In this document: positions 32,481-37,711 of the stretch, piece after piece | How positions within the stretch are numbered: position 1 is the stretch's first letter | Layout: each line of letters opens with the position of its first letter | Assembly: GCA_006226595.1 (NCBI GenBank) | Contig: SBGP01000079.1 | Span: forward strand, 1 to 64,000 | Direction: 5' to 3' | Origin: Deltaproteobacteria bacterium | GTDB lineage: Bacteria; Myxococcota_A; UBA796; GCA-2862545 | Length of the DNA: 64,000 nucleotides | The notes under the pieces: model-generated | What the model was told of the DNA's origin: nothing | Databases searched by the model: none | The model's input: the letters and a program-made list of their open reading frames with translations, nothing else | Program-made: the position numbers and the translations under genes

Positions 32481-32531
32481 GTTCCGAAGCTACTTGGCGC
32501 GCGTCTTGCACGCCAGCGGGCAGGAGGCAGC

Positions 32532-34136
32532 GTGTCCCATCCCATCCACATGACCCTGTTCCCAGCGCCCGCCCGATGGACGGCGCATGGCGAGCGGCGC
32601 CACCTGACCGGTGCGCAGCTGGTCGCGTACCTCGACAAGCCCGAGCTGTGGCCGTCGTCTACGTCGGTTCACGAGTCCGAGGGACTGCTGCCTGGGTGGA
32701 GCTTCGCGAAGTTCGTCGACGACGCCCGAGTCACCGGACGCGACGAGGCCGTGGCGGCTCACGAGAGCCGGCGTCGGGTCGAGGAGGTGTATGGCCTCGT
32801 GCTCGACTACCTCGACGAACCGGGCGTCGACGGGCCCCGCCTGCAGGAGTGGTGGAAGGGTACGTGGTTCGCGGCCTACTCCACGGCGTTTCACGAGGTG
32901 GCTCACGGCGAGCGGCCTCCCGGTCCGCGGTGGCGGGTGCTGGTGCCCCTGACCCGCGCGGTGAGCGTGGACGAGGCCGAGCGTCTGGTCGCCTGGGCCC
33001 GCCATCCGCGGCGCGGCGCCGGCATGATTGCCGAGATCAGCGCCGACCCCGGTCGCGTCGCCGCCCTGCCGGCGATTGGCCCTGGTGGCTTTCACAGCAC
33101 GTGGGGAGGCGGCCCGCTCCTCGATCCGAGCAAGGCCCTCGAGGAGCTCGCGGGGTGGCAGGTCGACGACGTCGAGCGCGCCGCGCGCGAGGAGCTCGCC
33201 GGGTGCCTGCTCGACGAGGCCGTCGCGAGCTTTCTGCACCTGCACCTGCAGGGCACTCCTCGCTTCGACTGGTCCGGGACACAGGCCGACAGCGAGGCGG
33301 CGAGCGGCGATCTCGGTCGGGTCGTGACCGCCCGCCCGCTGGCGGGACTCGCCCCGCTGGGACCCCTGTGGCCCGGTCGTCTCGCCTTGCTCGTGGGCGC
33401 GGCCGGTTCCGGGCGCACCTCGCTGGCGCTCCAGGTGGCGGGAGCCGTCGCCGCGACCGGCAGCCCCGTGCTCTACGTGTCGCTGGACACGGGCGCGGAC
33501 GAGCTGGTCGCCCGGCTGATCGCCGGTCGTGCGGCGAGCGAGGTCGCCCATCGGGACGTGCTCCTCGCCCGATGGCCCGAAGACATGCTGAGCGAGGCGG
33601 GACGCAGCCTGGTCGACGATCTGCGGCCGCTGCACCTGTGGGCTCCGACCCATGCCGAGCGGACGGAAGAGGCGCTCGTGCAGCGCGTGCGTAGCCTCGC
33701 CAGGGCCTTCCACGGCGCCCCGCCACTCGTCGTCCTCGATAGTGTCGACGACTGGGAGGGGCAGAGCGGAGGTGACGCGCTCGGTGAGCTGTTCGGCGCC
33801 CTCCGAGACATCGCCCGTCCGGGGTGCCTGTCCTCCGACTGGGCCGGGGCGGGCGTGCTCGCCGTGGCTGGCGTCGGGGCTCGCCTGCGGCCTGCGTTCG
33901 CCAGTCCCGAGGCGCTCGGTCGAGCCCTCGACGACGACATTCCGCTGGAGGTGGGGCCGATGCGCGAGGCCGCGCTGGTCCTCGCCCTCGCGACCCGGGC
34001 CTCCCCGGAGCGGGGAGAGTGGGCCAGCCTCCTCGCATCTGCGAAGAACCGGCACGGCCGAGACCTCGCGGTCGACCTGCGCTTCGACCCACGGCGCGGG
34101 GTGTTCTCCGAGGCGGAGGCGCAGCCCAACGCGTGA
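32532..34136 (+). CDS. Primase-like domain fused to a RecA-fold ATPase
   Basis: A 534-residue protein. The start is GTG 32532, four bases after AGGAGG. The N-terminal half (about 75-200) has the pattern of archaeo-eukaryotic-type primases of plasmids and phages: an acidic strand VYGLVLDYLDE (86-96), then AAYSTAFHEV (114-123), then GPRWRVLVPLTRAVSVDEAERLVAW (131-155; Arg133), equivalent to the usual DxD, STxSH and PRxRxxxPL blocks. The C-terminal half is a RecA/DnaB-like ATPase: Walker A LVGAAGSGRTS (287-297), LYVSLDTGADEL, Walker B PPLVVLDSVDD (397-407). This order resembles primase-helicase replication proteins of mobile elements, yet no phage or plasmid gene is nearby. The LDYLDE spacing is not the canonical DxD, so catalytic competence is uncertain. 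Confidence 0.65.
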   Translation: MSHPIHMTLFPAPARWTAHGERRHLTGAQLVAYLDKPELWPSSTSVHESEGLLPGWSFAKFVDDARVTGRDEAVAAHESRRRVEEVYGLVLDYLDEPGVDGPRLQEWWKGTWFAAYSTAFHEVAHGERPPGPRWRVLVPLTRAVSVDEAERLVAWARHPRRGAGMIAEISADPGRVAALPAIGPGGFHSTWGGGPLLDPSKALEELAGWQVDDVERAAREELAGCLLDEAVASFLHLHLQGTPRFDWSGTQADSEAASGDLGRVVTARPLAGLAPLGPLWPGRLALLVGAAGSGRTSLALQVAGAVAATGSPVLYVSLDTGADELVARLIAGRAASEVAHRDVLLARWPEDMLSEAGRSLVDDLRPLHLWAPTHAERTEEALVQRVRSLARAFHGAPPLVVLDSVDDWEGQSGGDALGELFGALRDIARPGCLSSDWAGAGVLAVAGVGARLRPAFASPEALGRALDDDIPLEVGPMREAALVLALATRASPERGEWASLLASAKNRHGRDLAVDLRFDPRRGVFSEAEAQPNA

Positions 34137-34189: not shown

Positions 34190-37100
34190 TTGTCCCGATT
34201 CCTCGACACCCTCGACTCCCGCGTGCTCATCCTCGACGGCGCGATGGGCACCAGTCTGCAGAACTACGATCTGCCCCTGTCCGACTACAACGGACTCGAG
34301 AACTGTTCCGAGATCCTGTGCATCACCCGCCCCGACGTCGTGATGGCGATCCACGAGTCCTACCTGGAGGTCGGCTGCGACGCGGTCGAGACCAACAGCT
34401 TCGGAGGGACCCGCCTCGTGCTCGCCGAGTTCGGCCTCGAGGACCAGGCCTATGAGCTGAACAAGCTGGCCGCCGAGCTCGCTCGCCAGTCCTGCGACAA
34501 GTACGCGACTCCCGAGCGTCCGCGGTTCGTCGTTGGCTCGATGGGCCCCGGCACCAAGCTCCCGTCGCTGCTTCACGTGCACTGGGACGAGCTGTTCGCC
34601 GCCTACGCCGAGCAGGCCAGGGGACTGCTCGATGGCGGCGCCGACGTGCTCCTCGTCGAGACCTGCCAGGACATCCTCCAGACTCGTTGTGCGCTGGCCG
34701 CGATCGAGAGCGTGCAGGCCGAGCGACCGGACGCGGACCGCGTCGCGGTCATGGCCCAGGTGACGATGGAGACCACGGGCACGATGCTGGTCGGCACCGA
34801 GATCGGTGCCGCGCTCGCCGTGCTCGATCGGCTGCCGTGCGACGTGATCGGCCTCAACTGTGCGACAGGCCCCCAGGAGATGGCGGGCCACATCGCGTAC
34901 CTCGCGCGGCACTGCAAGAAGCGCGTGTCCGTGCTCCCGAACGCTGGCCTGCCCCAGCTCATCGACGGCCACACCCACTACCCGCTCACGCCGGACGAGC
35001 TCGCCAACTGGCACGAGCGCTTCGTCTCCGAGGACGGTGTGCAGGTGATCGGCGGCTGCTGTGGCACCACTCCCGCGCACCTCAAGGCCGTGTGCGACCG
35101 CCTGTGGGGCAAGACCCCGGCCGTTCGCGAGCCCGAGCTCGAGGCTCAGGTCACGTCCCTGTACAGCCCCGTGGCCCTCCACCAGGACGCGGATGTGTTC
35201 GCCATCGGCGAGCGCACCAACGCCAACGGCTCGCGTCGCTTCAAGCGCCTGCTCGACGAGGAGAACTGGGACGGCATCGTGCGCATGGGCAAGAACCAGG
35301 CGAAGCACGGCAGCCACGCCATCGACGTATGTACCGCCTACGTCGGCCGCGACGAGGTCGCCGACATGTCCGAGGTCCTCAAGCGCTTCAACACGGACGT
35401 GCCCGCGCCGATCGTGCTCGACTCGACCGAGCTCAACGTCCTCGAGGAGGGCCTGAAGCTCGTTGGCGGGCGCGCGATCATCAACTCGATCAACCTCGAG
35501 GACGGCGAAGAGCGACTCGACAAGGTGTGTCGTCTCGCGCGCATCCACGGCTCCGCCGTCATCGCGCTGACCATCGACGAAGAAGGCATGGCGAAGACCG
35601 CCGAGCGCAAGCTCGAGGTCGCCAAGCGCCTCTACGATCTGGCCGTCAATCGCCACGGCCTGCACCCGGCGGACATCCTCTTCGATCCGCTCACGTTCAC
35701 GATCTGCACTGGCAACGAGGACGACCGCAAGCTCGGTGTCGAGACGCTGGATGGCATCCGCCTCATCCGCGAGCACCTGCCAGAGTGCGGCATCCTCCTC
35801 GGTCTGTCGAACATCAGCTTCGGCGTGAACCCCGCGGCCCGGCACGTGCTCAACTCGGTGTACCTGCACCACGCGCGGGAGGCGGGCCTGTCCGCGGCCA
35901 TCCTCCACATGACGAAGATCATGCCGCTGTTCAAGGTCGACGACCGCGAGCGCGAGGTGTGTGAGGACCTGATCTTCGACCGCCGCCGCGAGGGCTACGA
36001 CCCGCTCCAGGAGATGCTCGCGCTGTTTGCCGACGCGAAGACCGCGAAGAAGGAGCGGCCGAAGCCGAAGACGGTCGAGGAGCGGCTCAAGGCCCGAATC
36101 ATCGACGGAGACCGCGTCGACATCGAGGTCGACCTCGCCGAGGCGATGAAGACCTACGAGCCGCTGCACATCATCAACGAGCTGCTCCTCGACGGCATGC
36201 GCGTCGTCGGCGAGCTGTTCGGCGCGGGCCAGATGCAGCTGCCGTTCGTGCTCCAGTCCGCCGAGACGATGAAGGCCGCCGTGGCCTGGCTCGAGCCACA
36301 CATGGAGAAGATCGACGGGCAGGAGAAGGGGAGCATCGTGCTCGCCACCGTGCGCGGCGACGTCCACGACATCGGCAAGAACCTCGTCGACATCATCCTC
36401 TCGAACAACGGCTACAAGGTCCACAACATCGGCATCAAGCAGCCGCTGGACCAGATCCTCAAGGTGTGGCGCGAGACCGGTGCGGACGCCATCGGCATGA
36501 GCGGGCTGCTCGTGAAGAGCACCGTGATCATGAAGGAGAACCTGGAGGACATGCGCCGTCAGGGGCTCGATGTGCCGGTCGTCCTCGGAGGCGCCGCGCT
36601 GACCAAGCGCTTTGTCGAGGCGGACTGCTCCGAGGCCTACGGCTTCGACGTCACCTACGCCAAGGACGCGTTCTCCGGCCTGTACTTCATGGACCAGATG
36701 GCCAAGCGCAAGGCCTCCGGTGAGGCGATGGTCACGCCGTACGCCGCGGCGACCGAAGGCACGCCTGCCGCGGTCGAGGCAGGTGGCGCCGAGCCCGACG
36801 CCGGTGCCGATCTGCCCGAGCTGTCCGCGGAAGAAGCGAAGGGGCGCGTCACGGGTGCCGCCGGGCGCCCGCTCCCGGAGACGCCCTTCGACGGTCGCAG
36901 CGTCGAGGCGGTCGAGCCGCCCAAGGCACCGTTCTACGGCTCTCGCGTGGTGGAGAAGGTCGCGGTCGACGCGCTGGTGCCCTTCATCAACGAGAACGTG
37001 CTCTACAAGTTCCAGTGGGGCTTCGCCCGCAAGGGCCTGTCCACCGACGAGTGGAAGGAGCAGCTCGCGACGGTGGCGCGGCCGATCTTCCACGACCTCG

Positions 37101-37711
37101 TGAAGACCTGCATCGAGGAGGACATCCTCCGTCCCCAGGCGGTGTACGGCTACTTCCCGTGCAACTCCGACGGCGACGAGGTGGTGGTCTACCACCCCGA
37201 GCAGCACGACGAAGTCGTCGCGCGCCTGCCGTTCCCGCGTATGGACAAGGCGCCCAACAGCTGTATCGCCGACTACTTCCAGCCCATCGGCAGCGGCGTG
37301 AAGGACGTCATCGGGTTCACGTGTGTGACCATGGGCGAGCATGCGAGCGAGGTCACGAACCAGTGGTTCGAGGCGCACCGCTACCGCGACTACCTCTACC
37401 TGCACGGCCTCTCGGTCGAGATGACCGAGGCGCTCGCCGAGTTCATCCACCGCCAGATGCGCGCCGAGATGGGCATCAGCGGCGACGATGCCCGCGAGAT
37501 CAAGGACCTCTTCCACGTGAAGTACCGCGGCTGCCGCTACAGCTTCGGCTACCCCGCCTGCCCGGAGATGGCGCCGCAGCGTGATCTTCTGCGTCTGCTC
37601 GGTGCCGAGCGCATCGGCGTGAACATGGACGAGGACGACCAGCTCCACCCGGAACAGTCGACCTCGGCCCTCGTCGTGCACCACCCGGCCGCGCGCTACT
37701 TCAAGGTGTGA
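34190..37711 (+). CDS. metH: Cobalamin-dependent methionine synthase, full length
   Basis: A 1173-residue MetH that moves a methyl group from methyl-tetrahydrofolate through cobalamin to homocysteine. All four modules are present in order: homocysteine-binding barrel with zinc Cys (IGLNCATGP, VIGGCCGTTP), pterin-binding barrel (FAIGERTNANGSRRFKRLL), cap and B12 domains with the axial His726 in DVHDIGKN, and the SAM-dependent reactivation domain (ending RYSFGYPACPE, HPEQSTSALVVHHP). A Pro/Ala/Glu-rich linker (about 845-900) joins B12 and activation domains. The start is TTG 34190, with GGAGG four bases upstream; ATGs nearby are out of frame. No cobalamin or SAM riboswitch fits in the 53 bases upstream, so it may be read from the primase-like gene's transcript. 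Confidence 0.97.
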   Translation: MSRFLDTLDSRVLILDGAMGTSLQNYDLPLSDYNGLENCSEILCITRPDVVMAIHESYLEVGCDAVETNSFGGTRLVLAEFGLEDQAYELNKLAAELARQSCDKYATPERPRFVVGSMGPGTKLPSLLHVHWDELFAAYAEQARGLLDGGADVLLVETCQDILQTRCALAAIESVQAERPDADRVAVMAQVTMETTGTMLVGTEIGAALAVLDRLPCDVIGLNCATGPQEMAGHIAYLARHCKKRVSVLPNAGLPQLIDGHTHYPLTPDELANWHERFVSEDGVQVIGGCCGTTPAHLKAVCDRLWGKTPAVREPELEAQVTSLYSPVALHQDADVFAIGERTNANGSRRFKRLLDEENWDGIVRMGKNQAKHGSHAIDVCTAYVGRDEVADMSEVLKRFNTDVPAPIVLDSTELNVLEEGLKLVGGRAIINSINLEDGEERLDKVCRLARIHGSAVIALTIDEEGMAKTAERKLEVAKRLYDLAVNRHGLHPADILFDPLTFTICTGNEDDRKLGVETLDGIRLIREHLPECGILLGLSNISFGVNPAARHVLNSVYLHHAREAGLSAAILHMTKIMPLFKVDDREREVCEDLIFDRRREGYDPLQEMLALFADAKTAKKERPKPKTVEERLKARIIDGDRVDIEVDLAEAMKTYEPLHIINELLLDGMRVVGELFGAGQMQLPFVLQSAETMKAAVAWLEPHMEKIDGQEKGSIVLATVRGDVHDIGKNLVDIILSNNGYKVHNIGIKQPLDQILKVWRETGADAIGMSGLLVKSTVIMKENLEDMRRQGLDVPVVLGGAALTKRFVEADCSEAYGFDVTYAKDAFSGLYFMDQMAKRKASGEAMVTPYAAATEGTPAAVEAGGAEPDAGADLPELSAEEAKGRVTGAAGRPLPETPFDGRSVEAVEPPKAPFYGSRVVEKVAVDALVPFINENVLYKFQWGFARKGLSTDEWKEQLATVARPIFHDLVKTCIEEDILRPQAVYGYFPCNSDGDEVVVYHPEQHDEVVARLPFPRMDKAPNSCIADYFQPIGSGVKDVIGFTCVTMGEHASEVTNQWFEAHRYRDYLYLHGLSVEMTEALAEFIHRQMRAEMGISGDDAREIKDLFHVKYRGCRYSFGYPACPEMAPQRDLLRLLGAERIGVNMDEDDQLHPEQSTSALVVHHPAARYFKV

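Follow-up and report, generated by a model that had tools for sequence, protein, structure and literature searches.

A chromosomal primase-helicase fusion gene with replaced motor residues in uncultured Myxococcota-like bacteria

Introduction

AEPs of the PrimPol-PV1 supergroup that are fused to RepA/DnaB-type helicases sit in integrated elements (PMC5862659). The stretch of DNA analysed here (64,000 nucleotides, hereafter the window) contains a gene for a protein of similar architecture, and the question is what such a protein does on a chromosome: whether it still replicates DNA, is a leftover of an old element, or has been put to another use by its host.

Results

The gene and its surroundings

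The open reading frame that a first-pass annotation had singled out on the forward strand was confirmed. It is a convincing gene, more than chance, since relatives with full-length open frames are found in seven genomes and both halves of the protein yield confident AF2 folds. The signals that define it are the following.

32522..32527, + strand: ribosome-binding site AGGAGG, 4 nt 5' of the GTG (direct reading)
32532..34136, + strand: coding sequence of the AEP/DnaB-like fusion protein, 534 aa, GTG start (ORF reading and orthologues)

The motifs quoted at first reading are all there (LDYLDE, residues 91-96; STAFH, 117-121; PRWRVLVPL, 132-140), and the neighbour-like codon use is reflected in the codon-position composition, with a GC3 of 0.86 as compared to 0.84-0.94 in the neighbouring genes.

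The gene is flanked by ordinary chromosomal and metabolic genes, with Pfam matches to CobW, sulfotransferase, Ogt, PhyH, MetH, DUF892 and GMC oxidoreductase. Moreover, 25 genes of the window, the target included, are collinear with the corresponding region of a sister species (G001), and no mobile-element genes were found in the collinear region around the target. The earlier remark that integrase, capsid and partition genes are missing from its vicinity holds, and both the flanks and the collinearity speak against its being part of a plasmid, prophage or integrative element; a recent prophage or ICE is ruled out by the collinearity with G001.

The adjacency to metH, on which the annotation had also remarked, is real in the window genome but not general within the genus: in G001 the target is followed by a PhyH homologue and then a DUF892 homologue, metH is missing from the collinear place, and a search of that genome at E 1e-50 gave no MetH match at all. 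As the metH genes of other relatives lie on other contigs, synteny with metH was rejected as a functional clue and the link is incidental. The window metH itself (34190-37711) shares just 35-38% identity with the metH matches of related genomes; it was possibly acquired, or is possibly a distinct MetH type.

Outside the genus the neighbours of the target gene are mostly not shared. The family gene of G010 adjoins a trio encoding small DksA-like, SDR-like and FAD-oxidase-like proteins (named by eye), homologues of which lie about 7 kb from the target gene in G001. Assignment to a defence system was considered and rejected, the PADLOC matches being weak and limited to the P-loop region (mad8, E 0.0012; BrxF, E 0.029).

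Domain architecture

The full-length AF2 model was built from 8 sequences and has a mean pLDDT of 80.7. A structure search with this model was filled by matches to the DnaB half, and the N-terminal half (residues 1-242) was therefore folded separately, with a pLDDT of 86.9. Three regions can be distinguished.

32532..33197, + strand: AEP-fold domain, about residues 1-222 (AF2 pLDDT 86.9; Z 9.1 to 6zp9)
33249..33338, + strand: low-confidence linker, about residues 240-269 (pLDDT below 50 for residues 243-269)
33336..34133, + strand: DnaB/SF4-type RecA-fold domain, residues 269-534 (Pfam DnaB_C and AAA_25; Z 21.9)

The best structural match of the N-terminal half is the S-2L PrimPol (6ZP9, Z 9.1 over 145 residues, 15% identity), and the top rows of the search belong to one superfamily, the AEPs. 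Further AEP matches include RepB' (Z 7.5), Prim-PolC (6.6), CAPP (6.3) and the LigD polymerase (5.5); values below 8 can reflect common arrangements, but here the single superfamily of the top rows and the sequence motifs agree on an AEP. It was structure that settled the fold, since Pfam reported no AEP family for this half and PHROGs gave weak matches only (phrog_256, phrog_9765). The N-terminal half is thus predicted to have the AEP (RRM-like) fold that had been proposed from motifs.

The C-terminal half is the only part recognised by Pfam, with AAA_25 and DnaB_C above cut-off (28.8 bits for DnaB_C, against a cut-off of 27), and in the AF2 model residues 269-534 match E. coli DnaB with a Z of 21.9 over 240 residues. 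Predicted folds, Pfam and the structure search together bear out the fusion of an AEP-type domain to a RecA/DnaB-type ATPase.

Residues of the helicase half

Nine family members were aligned with 19 DnaB-type relatives, comprising chromosomal DnaBs (the host's own among them) and mobile-element-type DnaB-like proteins. The equivalences of active-site residues in both halves of the target were drawn from sequence alignment and from motif definitions in the literature.

33396..33422, + strand: Walker A position GAAGSGRTS, residues 289-297, with R295 in place of Lys (alignment)
33486..33488, + strand: D319, where DnaB has its catalytic Glu (alignment)
33726..33749, + strand: Walker B LVVLDSVD, residues 399-406, D403 invariant (alignment)
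34044..34058, + strand: KNRHG, residues 505-509, the Lys/Arg-finger hairpin of DnaB (alignment; finger according to PMC8421360)

The comparison revealed a consistent replacement of motor residues. DnaB/SF4 helicases carry GK[ST] in Walker A; the target reads GSGRT, and position 295 is Arg in 9/9 family members versus Lys in 19/19 relatives. The catalytic Glu at position 319, present in all 19 relatives, occurs in none of the nine (D, D, D, G, R, R, T, S, S), and the same is true of the conserved Arg after the sensor strand (SQLNR, position 450; 19/19 versus 0/9). Glu473-Ser474, conserved in DnaB, is mostly lost as well. The P-loop pattern as such has almost wholly disappeared from the G046 copy (L024) and partly from the G010 copy (L023).

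Other features have been kept. The Walker B Asp (D403) is invariant (9/9), as are R328, A299, A303 and A307, and the finger hairpin retains R507 in eight and K505 in seven of the nine. Three positions past the Walker B Asp, residue 406 is always acidic in the main clade (D or E, seven of seven) and Gln in the two paralogues; in the DnaB-type relatives it is Gln in 18/19. The first-pass annotation had described both Walker motifs as intact, which is correct for Walker B and incorrect for Walker A: all orthologues have lost the Walker A Lys, and likewise the catalytic Glu, but not the Walker B Asp.

The effect of such replacements is known from other RecA-fold proteins. RecA K72R still binds ATP but hardly hydrolyses it, and for RecA E96D altered hydrolysis was reported with ATP binding kept (PMC5240526); RAD51 K133R also binds ATP and is defective in hydrolysis (PMC3155514). 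In the target, R295 corresponds to the P-loop Lys-to-Arg change of K72R and K133R, and D319 to the Glu-to-Asp change of E96D, so that ATP binding without translocation would be expected; the retained finger hairpin may still allow rings or filaments to form.

Residues of the primase half

The AEP motifs could be located as follows.

32796..32819, + strand: AEP motif I LVLDYLDE, residues 89-96, D92 kept and L94 in place of the second Asp (motif definition of PMC5862659)
32877..32897, + strand: AEP motif II YSTAFHE, residues 116-122, with sxH as A119-F120-H121 (alignment)
32925..32951, + strand: PRWRVLVPL strand, residues 132-140, also present in intact AEP relatives from genomes of the same class
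33045..33056, + strand: motif III Asp D172 and motif IV Arg R175 (sequence alignment)

Motif II (sxH), the acidic residue of motif III (hD/E) and the Arg of motif IV are thus present in the target. Motif I of the AEP superfamily (hhhDhD/E) is incomplete: the target reads D-Y-L-D, with Leu at the second acidic position, in agreement with the earlier observation that LDYLDE deviates from the canonical DxD, which is found in all AEP relatives read for comparison. In the main clade the motif reads DYL, DYL, EYL, EYV, EYI, DYD and EYD, so that five of the seven members have L, V or I instead of the second Asp, and the adjoining position (D95) is Asp in all seven. Both paralogues have DYD, yet they lack the motif II His. 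As for motif III, its Asp occurs in the target, in G001 and G015 and, judged by eye, in the paralogues, but not family-wide; R175 of motif IV is kept in 6/7 main-clade members. In fact, no family member clearly retains motifs I, II and III together, the nearest being L024 (E-Y-D, the His, and Glu in motif III). Considering that PolpTN2 is inactive when both Asp of motif I are changed to Leu (PMC5862659), and that one of these two is Leu here, the primase of the target has probably lost its activity, though D95 calls for some caution.

Two AEP-like proteins were noted besides the family. One, at L073:9417-10571 (+) on G000:C9, is a stand-alone protein with a C-terminal SHOCT domain and intact-looking motifs (MDHDD, TTWSH); it lies near era/rnc/mnmA-like genes (named by eye). 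Its counterpart in G001 is 70% identical, and less similar copies occur in further genomes of the class. The other, at L029:7807-10383 (G043:C152), lies in a prophage-like locus and has an AEP-like N-terminal domain (LDYDND), related to the AEP half of the target, fused to a VapE-like helicase.

Distribution, inheritance and selection

The family comprises nine members in seven genomes (G000, the window genome, and G001, G003, G010, G013, G015 and G046), the G046 member being more divergent than the others. These are open frames of about 490-550 codons, 26-57% identical to the target, with invariant non-catalytic residues throughout. All relatives come from draft MAGs, with gene calls outside the window made by a simple codon-usage script, and every named record among them is a metagenome assembly under 'Proteobacteria', 'Deltaproteobacteria' or 'Myxococcota'. 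An alignment-based scan of the genome contigs recovered seven loci, where a single-protein query had given no match.

All finds of the family come from a single order-level group of uncultured, Myxococcota-like bacteria. Within the taxonomic family, 6 of 21 genomes carry the gene, several of the others being incomplete. Among 379 genomes drawn from the phylum, those outside the order gave partial matches to the helicase half only; a search of IMG/VR gave no match to the family, and tblastn against phages and plasmids returned partial matches without a full-length relative.

A second paralogue, 27% identical to the target, is present in both G000 and G001 (L026:9148-10614 on G000:C18; L027:9226-10698 on G001:C33). 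These paralogues have the P-loop Arg and D-x-D and are without the catalytic Glu and the motif II His; in both genomes a row of trypsin-like protease genes (by eye) adjoins them. The family gene of G003 (L020, G003:C56, 9067-10731) adjoins a large polyketide-synthase-like gene, a homologue of which is found on G000:C18, about 17 kb away from the paralogue. The G003 copy is also about 6 kb from era/rnc/mnmA-like genes.

The family tree supports the pairs G000+G001 and G003+G015, the same pairs as the trees of Lon and DnaB; the deeper branching order is unresolved in all three alike. The data fit vertical inheritance with losses; some horizontal movement may have occurred, given the patchy distribution and the mostly unshared neighbours outside the genus.

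The dN/dS ratios, which are rough as dS is near saturation, are about 0.30 for the target between window and G001 (57% identity; neighbouring genes 0.07-0.46), about 0.17 for the paralogue pair (dN 0.186, dS 1.085), about 0.40 for G003-G015 and about 0.47 for window-G003. Considering the open frames, the ratio of about 0.30 versus the sister species and the collinear surroundings free of mobile-element genes, the target gene is under purifying selection and is not decaying.

Comparison with known systems

The AEP-RepA/DnaB fusions of the PrimPol-PV1 supergroup (PMC5862659) show the same order of domains as the target, AEP followed by a RecA-type helicase, and share with it the motif II His and the motif IV Arg. 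Unlike those element proteins, the target does not lie in an element, its motif I is incomplete, and it is without the Walker A Lys and the catalytic Glu. The S-2L PrimPol (6ZP9) likewise has an acidic residue adjoining the second Asp of motif I (PMC8065100), but it retains E85-x-D87 and D146, whereas the second position of the target is L94.

With DnaB/SF4 helicases such as E. coli DnaB and G40P the target has in common the fold (Z about 21), the Walker B Asp, the Arg-finger hairpin and the structural residues R328, A299 and A303. It differs from DnaB in its P-loop Arg and in the missing catalytic Glu and post-sensor-strand Arg, and its AEP domain replaces the DnaB N-terminal domain. The same overall architecture is seen in L025 (G047), a fusion of Prim-Pol (PF09250) and DnaB_C whose helicase half is 37% identical to that of the target over residues 281-462; this protein keeps GRGKSS and SLEM, and its AEP belongs to a different, Pfam-recognised family.

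RecA-fold paralogues that serve as scaffolds after loss of catalysis are known in the RAD51 paralogues and in SulA/ImuA. Like the target these retain the RecA fold, with hydrolysis dispensable or lost; they lie outside the SF4/DnaB branch and have no AEP domain, so that they provide a working analogy and not a family to which the target belongs. Literature searches retrieved no paper on primase-DnaB pseudoenzymes and, by title, nothing relevant on chromosomal AEP-helicase proteins of Myxococcota.

Discussion

The reading that we favour, at slightly better than even confidence, is that a mobile-element primase-helicase was domesticated as a DNA scaffold that probably binds ATP and does not hydrolyse it. 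The ancestor of the order-level lineage would have captured the replication protein of a mobile element, an AEP primase joined to a DnaB-type helicase, which would since have been inherited mostly vertically as a chromosomal host gene. The helicase half, having lost the P-loop Lys, the catalytic Glu and the post-sensor-strand Arg and kept the P-loop glycines, the Walker B Asp and the finger hairpin, should still bind ATP and possibly form rings or filaments, without hydrolysis or translocation. The AEP half would contribute its fold and the nucleotide-binding His and Arg, with a metal site that appears broken or shifted. With the motor residues of the helicase replaced throughout the known copies and the primase site changed in the majority of them, a scaffold is probably a better description than an enzyme: a nucleotide-gated one on single-stranded or primer-template DNA, most likely for DNA maintenance. 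Of the two origins suggested by the first-pass annotation, a domesticated protein is the probable one, considering that no mobile element surrounds the gene; the other, a remnant of an old element, may be right about the origin and disagrees with purifying selection as to the current state.

A decaying remnant without current function was indeed already disfavoured by the dN/dS values, and we consider it very unlikely. The catalytic motifs have degraded slightly differently between members, as the P-loops of L024 and L023 illustrate, but all nine frames are open, the ratios for the pairs tested lie between 0.17 and 0.47, and non-catalytic residues, as well as the replacement Arg itself, are invariant at 26-57% identity. 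The invariance of R295 is not what random loss would leave, and together with the acidic residue at 406 and D95, each in 7/7 of the main clade, it allows for active sites that have been remodelled and not disarmed. It is accordingly conceivable, if unlikely, that the protein is still an active enzyme, serving the replication of a cryptic element or of its host, and works with a P-loop Arg and relocated acidic residues (D406, D95), the more so as the second Asp is also displaced, next to a conserved Asp, in the S-2L PrimPol (PMC8065100). Such activity has to be reconciled with the loss of further positions conserved in DnaB (Arg450 in all nine, Gln406 in the main clade, Glu473-Ser474 in most), with an AEP motif III that is not conserved, and with the absence of an element around the gene. 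That the DnaB-derived site works in a specifically remodelled form, the P-loop Arg being paired with the acidic 406 and the AEP metal Asp moved from i+2 to i+3 (D95), seems decidedly unlikely; if true, it would mean an SF4 catalytic centre of a new kind, in a primase-helicase owned by the host.

Extremely doubtful, in our view, is the combination of a disarmed helicase with an AEP half that continues to make or extend primers in gap-filling or repriming, the ATPase fold acting as an ATP-gated clamp. The target does keep D92, D95, H121, D172 and R175, and L023 retains D-x-D, but Leu at both motif I Asp kills PolpTN2 (PMC5862659), L, V or I takes the second Asp in most of the main clade, and motifs I-III are clearly kept together in no member. 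An inactive subunit could also be turned against mobile elements, by joining or blocking the helicase rings of related plasmids or prophages or by covering their origins, and so poison replication. Genomes of the same order do encode intact DnaB-like relatives, with both Lys and Glu in place (L028, L025, L030); the locus of at least one of these, L028, resembles an element, with ParA-type and recombinase-like genes by eye, and the target is patchy in its distribution and fast-evolving. Nevertheless, such a role appears rather unlikely: no defence-island context was seen, the PADLOC matches are weak and fall over the P-loop region, and the likeness to intact helicases is confined to the ATPase half.

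Under domestication as a scaffold, the reading preferred here, the host lineage appears to have kept a primase-helicase fusion after the consistent replacement of its motor residues. The family thereby offers nine natural proteins with which to ask what a DnaB-type fold does without hydrolysis, and whether hosts re-use the replication proteins of their parasites, be it for maintenance or for interference.
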